Below are positions 3,877 through 6,504 of a stretch of DNA of 6,504 bases, one piece after another. The notes below the pieces were generated by a model that did not search any database, had not been told where the DNA came from, and worked only from the letters and a program-made list of their open reading frames with translations. This stretch comes from an uncultured Selenomonadales bacterium (GTDB lineage: Bacteria > Bacillota_C > Negativicutes > Selenomonadales > Selenomonadaceae): contig CAMYWI010000080.1 of the NCBI GenBank assembly GCA_947302675.1, positions 1 through 6,504 of the forward strand. The letters run 5' to 3'. Positions within the stretch are counted from its first letter, which is position 1, and each line of letters begins with the position of its first letter. A program made the translations under genes and the position numbers.

Positions 3877-3879
3877 CTA
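3877..3879 (-). other. In-frame amber (TAG) codon inside the adhesin gene
   Basis: The frame reads GGC GCA GAG TAG CAT GAG AAA, with open adhesin-like coding on both sides. It is the only stop in about 2129 codons of this frame. A C-to-T change in a CAG glutamine codon is the simplest origin. The following base is C, a context known to favour leaky UAG reading in some systems. Whether this is a disabling mutation, a recoded codon or a base-call error cannot be told from the sequence. Confidence 0.9.
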
Positions 3880-6389
3880 CTCTGCGCCTTCCGTCCAATT
3901 ATACGTCAAGCCGCTTTTGGGATTATATTCGACGAACTGACCGATTGACAGTCCTTTGTCCTCTGTAACTTTGCTCTCTGTAAGTTTGTCCTTTTTGTTT
4001 TCGACGAGCCACTTGGAATAATTTTCTATGGTGCGCGTTTTTCCGCTGCTATACTCGGTTAATTTGTCCTGCGCGGAGTCGACAATCTGAATAAAGCCTT
4101 CGCCTTCGTTACTCGTTACCTTGCCGACGCTCATATCTGCCGACGAATTGTTGGTTATGTTGATATTGCTTAAGCCGTCGTTGGCTATGATTCTGCCGTT
4201 ACCTGTGGACGATATACGACCCGCCAGATAAATTTTGCCGCTCGACGAATCTATATTATCAACGTAAAGCTTGTTGTTCGCCTTGTCGTAGTAAACTTGC
4301 GGCTCATAGACATAGTAGCCTTTGGAATTGAGTTTCTCGCCGCCGTCGTTGACTTTGTACATAAGCGTATCATTGAAGAACGTCGTTTCGGTCGCGTTGT
4401 CGAGGTCGGCTTGCGTTATATTCACCGCAAAATCGGAATAGCCCGCTTGAATCAAGCCGTTAATGTTTATATCCCGCGCAGAAATGTAAATCGCTTTGCC
4501 TGCTTTCCAAGGCGAGCCGCCGGTATACTTCCAATCGCTTGTTTTAGTTTCAATTTTGTCGCTCTGGAGGTGCTTTAATATATCAGTCTCATTACCTATG
4601 GTGAATTGCCAGTCTCTATCCCAACCGACCGCCTTGCGCAATTTCTTTGCCTCGTCGGCGTAAGCATATTCGGGATTGTAGGCGATATTGACTATGCTGT
4701 CGGTGTAGCCCTGCGTAATGCTGTCCCCAGCCCGCATTTCTAGATCCATTGCATTAACAGTTGCGCCCGTGCTGATTTTGATACTGCCATGCGTGTTGCT
4801 GATAAACGCCTTGCCGACAGGATTCGTTACGTCGCCGATTATCTCAATGTAATTTAGCGGCGTATATTTGGTTCCTTCTTTTTTAACTTCGTCGGGCAGT
4901 TTGGAATAGCCTTCCGCTTTCGGGTCTACCTTCACGGAGATTGGACCGGAGCCGGAATAATTGTTAGATACTTTTATCGTCGGGATTTCTTTAGAGTTGG
5001 CAACTTTGATTTCGGCAAATTTCGCGTCGCCGCCTATATCCGAATTGCTCGCTACTGTCTTACCGTTGAAGATGACATTGCCGCCCTTGTCGGCTATCGT
5101 CAATTTGTTCGCAACGAGATAAGCGGTTGAATCGTTTTCAATGTCGATTTGAGGAACGCCGCTGGCATTGAGTTTACCGGAGCCGCTGAAACTGCCCGTA
5201 CGGACGTTGATACTTCCGCCGCTGACTTCCACATTGGGCAATACAAGCGTCTTTATTCCTACTGAAAAATCCGGGTCAAGTAAAAATTCTCCGCTTTCTG
5301 TGTAGCGACCCAAGCTCAACTTTTCCAATTCTTCTTCGAGAGATTTTTTCTCCTGCAAAAGACTGTTATAGGCCACAATGTCGTTTCTGCCATTAACCCC
5401 ATATTCGTTGACATTTGTTTCTATTTCTTTGTAGCGGGGAATCAGACTGTCTTCGGGTCGAATCATACCGGTCGTTATGCCGTTGTAAACGTATTGCGCA
5501 AAGGCTTCTTCGCTGGTCATGTCCTTGAAATTCGTATTCTTTTTGGTGACGGTTTCATTGCCGCTCGTCACGCTGTACGACAGATTTTTGGCATTCTTAT
5601 CAACCAAAAGGAAATCGTCGGGCACTGCTACGCCGCTGATTTTTATCGTCGCGTTCGGGACACTGCCCGCTTTAAGGGAGCCGTCGACTTTCACGTTTTT
5701 ACTGTGCGTGTAACTATTGCCGGTGACGTTGCCCAGCTCAGTCATTGACACGTTATCTTTGTGTTCTCCTTTTCCCCAAAGAGTGCCGGCAAACGCATGA
5801 TCATCGTAAGTTTCATACCCCGCGTTTGATATGATATTAACGTCGTGCTTAGCCTCGCCGTAAGCCCCGCTGTTGATATTGACATTGGAAGTGGTCTTGC
5901 CACTGCGAGACACTTTAACTGAAGAAGCGGGTATAACTGTGTTAGATTCTGTAACTGATTCCGAGTAGGAATTGACTTTGGAGCCTTCGCCGTTGGTATC
6001 TGCGCCCGCGTAGAGATTTAAATCCTTCGCGCTGTTCAACGTGCCGTTAATCGTGATGGTCGAATTTCTTTTTAAATCGGTAAGAGTTTCTACGCCGACA
6101 TAACCGGCAACACCCGCTTGGGCATAACCTTTTGCCCTAAAATTAAATTTCAAATTATCATGCGCCGCTAAAGTGATTCCGCTGTCTTCGTAGAGACCGC
6201 CTTCGTTTTTGAGAAGTGCGCCCTCACCGACGTTGATATTTTCGTTCGCCGTGATGTAGTTATCAGAGTCAGCCCAGTGCAAGCTAAGCAGTAAGCTGCC
6301 GCCTTCTCCGTGAACTTTATTTTGTAAATCGTAATTACTTAGCGCGTCATAAGTTTGCGTGCCGGTCGTCTGTATCGTCGCGTTCTTGC
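3877..6389 (-). CDS. Giant LktA-family-like filamentous adhesin, downstream exon up to the in-frame amber codon
   Basis: About 836 codons of a very large surface or secreted adhesin; its N-terminus with any signal peptide lies beyond the intron. The exon is entered two bases into a split codon (GC, then AAG AAC GCG ACG). The protein is rich in Gly, Asn, Ser, Thr and Asp, and built from short beta-strand repeats suggesting a beta-helix, for example INGTLNSAKDLNLYAGADTN near 6030 and a similar GAYGEAKHDVNIISNAGYET near 5840. A helical insert follows at 5308-5520. Later blocks KAVGWDRDWQFTIG (about 4600-4641) and SGLTYNWTEG (about 3886-3915) resemble conserved stretches I remember from LktA-family adhesins. 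No cysteine is encoded apart from a TGC formed with an intron base at the junction. The open frame can be extended to a GTG at 6435, but that codon is in intron domain VI and has no convincing Shine-Dalgarno spacing, so I start the segment at the splice site. It ends at TAG, after which the same frame continues. Family assignment is likely, not verified. Confidence 0.82.
5308..5520 (-). other. Helical, coiled-coil-like insert in the adhesin (first)
   Basis: The encoded segment starts near MTSEEAFAQYVYNGI and ends near LQEKKSLEEELEKLSLG. It is rich in Glu, Lys and Leu with heptad-like spacing and breaks the surrounding beta-repeat pattern. It resembles the longer helical insert at 2263-2745: an amphipathic opening, an acidic turn, then a coiled coil. 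It may form a hairpin projecting from a beta-helical stalk, which is an inference. Confidence 0.5.
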
Positions 6390-6391
6390 AT

Positions 6392-6436
6392 AGTGATAGG
6401 TAATTCTTTGAGGTAATCGCTGAATTTTCCCCCACT
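6392..6436 (-). ncRNA. Group II intron domain VI with branch-point adenosine
   Basis: Starting 2 nt after domain V, AGUG (6436-6433) pairs with CACU (6395-6392), followed by a G.U pair, one unpaired A (6397), another G.U pair and two G-C pairs. After a small internal loop, AAUUC (6426-6422) pairs with GAAUU (6406-6402) around a 15-nt loop. An unpaired A flanked by G.U pairs and placed 8 nt from the intron end is the classic lariat branch point. The helix was folded by hand, so pairs around the internal loop are less certain than the lower stem. Confidence 0.82.
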
Positions 6437-6438
6437 CC

Positions 6439-6472
6439 ACACCGTGCTTGCGACTTTCACCGCACACGGCGT
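6439..6472 (-). ncRNA. Group II intron domain V (catalytic hairpin)
   Basis: On the minus strand these 34 nt fold as an 8-bp lower stem, a 2-nt AG bulge on the 3' side (6448-6447), a 6-bp upper stem and a GAAA tetraloop (6458-6455). This is the canonical domain V architecture and length. The catalytic triad reads C-G-C (6471-6469), with the central G in a G.U wobble and the flanking bases in C-G pairs. In AGC-type introns the first pair is A-U, so this is a covariant change of the kind known from class C introns. Domain V binds the active-site metal ions for both splicing steps. No disrupting mismatch is seen, so the hairpin looks intact. Confidence 0.93.
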
Positions 6473-6504
6473 TCCATCTTTGTTAATTCATTCCAATCTA
6501 ATCA

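Follow-up and report, generated by a model that had tools for sequence, protein, structure and literature searches.

A sense-oriented group II intron, probably a recent insertion, within a giant adhesin gene of a gut Selenomonadaceae bacterium

The stretch of DNA analysed here, referred to as the window, is an entire contig of 6504 bases. Its minus strand begins inside a group II intron and continues from the intron's 3' end directly into a long adhesin frame, which is interrupted by one stop codon and otherwise remains open up to the other end of the contig (Table 1). From 6389 on, the adhesin frame continues within a codon whose letters at the border are one intron base and the two bases GC; this agrees with the preliminary description of this DNA, according to which the exon begins again with two bases of a divided codon. 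Since the window is the whole contig and ends inside the intron, intron domains I–IV and the upstream exon are missing from it. Using Pfam and NCBIfam we found no named domain in the adhesin pieces of the window, and neither Fil_haemagg nor TPS haemagglutination domains were recognised in them; the name "adhesin" is based on filament-like repeats and on the relatives described below.

Table 1. Position, strand and supporting evidence of the features located in the window
Feature	Position	Strand	Evidence
Group II intron, last 115 nt, cut by contig end	6390..6504	-	RF00029 6474-6390; similarity to relatives' copies
Domain V hairpin	6439..6472	-	Rfam alignment; pairs conserved and covarying, 18 sequences
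Domain VI, presumed branch-point A at 6397	6393..6435	-	Rfam alignment; helix 98.1% of cells paired
3' splice site, intron base 6390 / exon base 6389	6389..6390	-	RF00029 match end; border conserved in relatives; homologous protein resumes at next full codon
GC, last two bases of split codon	6388..6389	-	GGC (glycine) in 9/9 homologous loci
Adhesin exon downstream of the intron; 836 full codons before the TAG	3880..6387	-	Frame reading; homologous loci
In-frame TAG, single stop in 2,129 codons	3877..3879	-	Frame reading
Adhesin continuation, same frame open to contig end	1..3876	-	Frame reading; homologous loci

A domain V and a domain VI with a correctly placed branch A, located on the coding strand and immediately followed by the adhesin frame, had already been noted in the preliminary description, and an Rfam covariance search had been proposed there as a check. 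This search bears the reading out: RF00029, the Rfam model of group II domains V and VI, matches the minus strand at 6474–6390 over its full length (model positions 1–77 of 77) with a score of 58.6 bits (E-value 6.3e-10; cut-off 40 bits). It is the sole Rfam match above the cut-off in the window, and its score falls within the range of 55.5–64.1 bits observed for seven relatives that were scanned. The branch-point A of group II introns is unpaired and located 7–8 nt before the intron 3' end. In the window A6397 is unpaired in the 3' strand of domain VI, both in the Rfam alignment and in the structure used for counting pairs, and lies 7 nt ahead of 6390, the final base of the intron; from this position we presume it to be the branch point.

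To analyse pairing within the two domains, we aligned the window to a selection of 17 relatives, comprising 14 of the 39 family copies with a 3' end, two plasmid copies and one viral contig. Standard pairing was found in 98.8% of the cells of the domain V/VI pairs, and changes on both sides were present in 6 of the 19 pairs, a value that none of 500 shuffles reached (shuffled mean 1.4). When the partners were slid by 1–3 columns, pairing fell to 27–58%. The folding energy of the 115 nt alone is not unusually stable (z = -0.96), 31 of 200 shuffles being equally good. The support for the intron end is therefore provided by homology and covariation and not by energy.

A single genome scan yielded ten adhesin loci: nine close ones (L001–L009) and L010, a distant locus whose identity to the first piece is about 28%. 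Each of the nine close loci contains a single open frame of 4,123–6,196 residues. Six of these frames are complete and comprise 5,878–6,196 residues; the other three reach or start at the end of a contig or locus. The downstream exon of the window is 56–62% identical to eight of the nine loci in a single alignment, and to L009 in two pieces with 53 and 58% identity. In all nine loci the frame is uninterrupted through the junction point, where the codon is GGC. Because GC directly follows the intron in the window, we place the intron between the first and second bases of a glycine codon. Up to that first base the nine loci read ATATCG (six loci), ATATTG (two) or AAATTG (one), to which an EBS1 of about CGATAT, CAATAT or CAATTT would be complementary. 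For the six complete frames, the junction point corresponds to residue 3,118–3,283, that is mid-protein, and a location of the intron at the upstream edge of the gene was rejected on these grounds. P0003, a protein encoded in a Selenomonadaceae MAG (under the source name IJP68_05065), agrees with the window in 444 of 458 residues (97%) and spans the junction without an insertion; P0002 and P0005 likewise span it uninterrupted. As the insertion is located mid-gene, is precise and is absent from a close relative, it appears to be recent. For the proposal that an intron splits the adhesin gene, the sense orientation and the mid-gene position could thus be established in the window and its homologues, while the upstream exon and domains I–IV are suggested by the relatives and would lie beyond the contig end. 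Two protein searches for a fragment of the upstream exon running into the intron (candidate lengths of about 536–1704 and about 165–525) returned none.

The gene directly upstream of the adhesin homologue in L006 encodes POTRA and ShlB domains, as in a TpsB transporter, and thereby suggests two-partner secretion. For both L006 and L002, Pfam gave no match in the first 1000 residues, and no haemagglutination domain was recognised at the N-terminus; Fil_haemagg was detected in the C-terminal piece of L002, below its cut-off. Some copies are not whole: among 14 matches to P0003 in three genomes, the adhesin gene at G002:C42 is present as two shorter frames. P0008, P0010 and P0013 are adhesin relatives with unrelated tails; broken or frameshifted copies or assemblies seem to be frequent in this adhesin family. 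In P0010 the tail starts a few residues after the junction and does not fit an intron of the window type read in phase 1.

Downstream of the junction the adhesin frame contains a TAG that the preliminary description had missed. Base composition at the three codon positions is similar on both sides of it, and the close homologous loci have an open frame with a sense codon at this position. The TAG at 3879–3877 may represent a recent nonsense change, a sequence error or a case of readthrough, and the gene could be decaying. Barring a sequence error at the TAG, full-length adhesin is probably not produced from this allele, since the stop ends the protein 836 codons on even if splicing is perfect.

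Using the 115 nt of the intron as a query, we found matches in 24 of the 189 genomes of the bacterial family to which genome G001 belongs, with DNA identities of up to 92% over the full 115 nt. Forty of the 44 listed places were examined, of which 39 have the intron 3' end and one (L063) does not; other intron copies appear shortened. A loose motif is found at the 3' border in 38 of the 39 copies, and 31 of the 39 have exactly ACCTATCACTAT. In 16 of the 39 the contig ends less than 300 nt upstream of the 3' border, so that the end of the window 115 nt into the intron corresponds to a usual assembly break in a repeated element. Matching the RF00029 model against genomes gave no match in any of four genomes, one of which (G003) does contain part of a copy according to DNA similarity.

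Four full-length copies (L047, L055, L059 and L061) comprise 2541–2548 nt and start with GTGCGACTTGTTC at the 5' end; the copies in L066 and L058 are 2535 and 2376 nt long, respectively. In the former four the upstream and downstream frames are both in phase 1. The 5' consensus of group II introns is GUGYG, and GTGCG was found at the 5' end of six full-length relatives and in all four pieces of split core genes described below. RF02004, which represents domains I–IV, matches all four of these full-length copies as well as three of three other sources. The intron protein of L055, the sole one examined, meets a group II reverse transcriptase/maturase model and has an HNH domain. Splicing of group II introns requires the contact between EBS1 and IBS1. 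EBS1 pairs with the copy's own 5' exon end at 4, 5, 5, 6, 6 and 6 of 6 positions in six copies, which are not independent as three of the exon ends are alike. In the alignment of domain I the EBS1 column reached an own-minus-other score of 2.73 versus 1.07 for the next best column. The intron family is probably CL-like. Ll.LtrB, the relaxase-gene homing intron of Lactococcus lactis, is an intron of class ML and belongs to a different lineage from the intron in the window.

Outside this bacterial family, a 125-base query matched 362 plasmid records, 313 of them from Enterococcus, indicating that this kind of intron is widespread on plasmids of other Bacillota. Plasmid introns of Enterococcus faecium and Cytobacillus firmus (L042 and L043) show 80–85% DNA identity over 80–88% of the query; both RF02004 and RF00029 match them, and an annotated ltrA is located upstream of the match. 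Unlike in the window, no adhesin is annotated under the match; the neighbours there encode a Y-family DNA polymerase and a DUF3854 protein. On a viral contig (L011, 3551–4036, minus strand) RF02004 and RF00029 match close together, and domain V is identical to that of the window over 34 nt; this is a short intron of the window kind in a virus, apparently without a long protein gene inside.

We also assessed into which genes the family has inserted. The gene deoB is found in two pieces in genome G057 (L050 and L085), covering profile positions 1–85 and 81–380 of 381, and argC in two pieces in G109 (L082 and L088), covering positions 1–58 and 59–345 of 345. For topB in G079 (L045, L091 and L092) positions 3–109 of 706 are covered twice and positions 110–648 once; the two topB-like upstream pieces are cut at the same codon and there is one downstream piece. 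GTGCGACTTGTTC directly follows all four upstream pieces of deoB, argC and topB, and the contigs end 131–174 nt beyond. The phases of the upstream and downstream pieces agree with each other in each gene (0 for deoB, 1 for argC and 1 for topB). The halves are located on separate contigs and would be linked by one intron. Exons of other copies belong to a trbE-like gene (L061), a resolvase gene (L047) and a gene with an ERF domain (L055); that of L048 is perhaps an RTX-like repeat gene, with a match below the cut-off.

The idea that the family generally prefers genes was rejected: a sense frame of at least 100 codons follows the border in 14 of the 39 copies, compared to 41% at positions drawn at random nearby. 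Of the frames that touch the border, those in sense and antisense orientation number 20 and 13 for a length of 60 codons, 14 and 5 for 100, 12 and 2 for 150, and 9 and 0 for 200. This bias fits a loss of antisense insertions, as antisense copies cannot splice from the mRNA of the gene. Among the 14 copies with a sense frame of at least 100 codons the longest frame is in phase 1 in nine; the window is also in phase 1. In three genomes the copy (L065, L071 and L074) is followed by a near-identical gene end of 25 codons in phase 1, so the three copies probably share one target site.

Most probably a mobile group II intron has recently inserted, in sense orientation, in the middle of the gene for a filamentous adhesin of about 6,000 residues in a Selenomonadaceae gut bacterium, and the insertion is tolerated since the intron can be spliced; in this reading it is not a dedicated switch. 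The intron RNA would fold within the adhesin pre-mRNA and would be removed with the help of the intron-encoded protein, upon which the exons would join within the glycine codon and restore the frame at the junction. On unspliced RNA, ribosomes that read on from the upstream exon would terminate shortly past the intron 5' end: read in phase 1, five full relatives have a stop after 12–27 residues. A recent insertion tolerated because it is removed had been one of two options in the preliminary description. The first part agrees with the absence of the intron from all nine homologous loci, whereas the removal is predicted from the sequence.

It is unlikely, although conceivable, that the intron is present but truncated or dead and no longer splices, the adhesin gene being simply broken in this strain. 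The in-frame TAG downstream would fit such a state, as would the place that has no intron 3' end (L063) and the seemingly shortened copies elsewhere. Bacterial intron copies are moreover described as mostly truncated or inactivated in the accessible part of a review (PMC4424553). However, domains V and VI of the window are intact, with a score in the range of the relatives, and the 3' border is unaltered.

The other option raised earlier, a regulated switch in which the level of splicing sets the amount of full-length adhesin at the surface, appears highly improbable to us. Its attraction is the location within a surface-protein gene, along with the early stop expected upon reading into the intron and the precedent of Clostridium tetani. 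There the group II intron C.te.I1 resides in a surface-protein gene and undergoes alternative splicing, the surface-layer intron giving rise to five isoforms according to the available sections of the report (PMC3919590). As in the window, an intron is located in a surface-protein gene and splicing decides, or in our case would decide, which protein is made. However, C.te.I1 has four downstream domain V/VI repeats in addition to its alternative splicing, as far as described in the accessible text (PMC4424553), whereas repeats of this kind are absent from the 6.5 kb of the window with its one RF00029 match. Across growth conditions, the same available sections of the C. tetani report indicate no large change in splicing (PMC3919590). 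The insertion is absent from the nine homologous loci and from P0003, and has therefore not been kept as a regulatory element; the TAG further weakens the idea of a regulated production of the full protein from the window copy. Neither regulated splicing nor the same insertion kept in many strains was seen in our analysis. We likewise attach very little probability to a broader scenario, in which a group II intron lineage with re-aimed EBS1 has spread through protein-coding and core genes in gut Selenomonadaceae and the level of splicing sets mid-protein-truncated versus longer forms of the adhesin at the surface. That the assembly wrongly fused an intron end to a contig of an unrelated adhesin can practically be dismissed: the junction does lie at a contig end and in multi-copy sequence, but the join is located exactly at the intron 3' end and the bases that follow are precisely the GC of GGC in the homologues, a combination that is unlikely for a random join.

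The insertion favoured here has a counterpart in Lactococcus lactis SK11, where a copy of Ll.LtrB is located in a cell surface protein gene, likely as a result of retrotransposition (accessible text of PMC5072309); in both cases the gene hit by a mobile group II intron is chromosomal and encodes a surface protein. In Thermosynechococcus elongatus, multi-copy introns can be grouped into families whose EBS sequences differ in accordance with the sites they target. The window family resembles them in this respect; a difference is that only a small number of the T. elongatus introns are located within genes, as reported in the available part of the study (PMC2882425). The literature covered by us, which includes few subscription papers and hence gives no proof that the case is unpublished, contained no report of an intron in this adhesin host gene among the listed titles and openings of abstracts.

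The adhesin case is one more in-gene insertion of a known intron type. That bacterial group II introns are mostly located between genes or in mobile elements, as the preliminary description stated, fits the literature, in which they are described as mostly outside housekeeping genes with exceptions in cyanobacteria and in the CL and ML lineages (available parts of PMC4424553 and PMC6003770). The statement holds less well for the family studied here, which also splits deoB, argC and topB. Close relatives of the intron within one bacterial family thus split at least three core genes at exact borders, and the family is accordingly well suited for measuring the splicing efficiency of such introns in bacteria.
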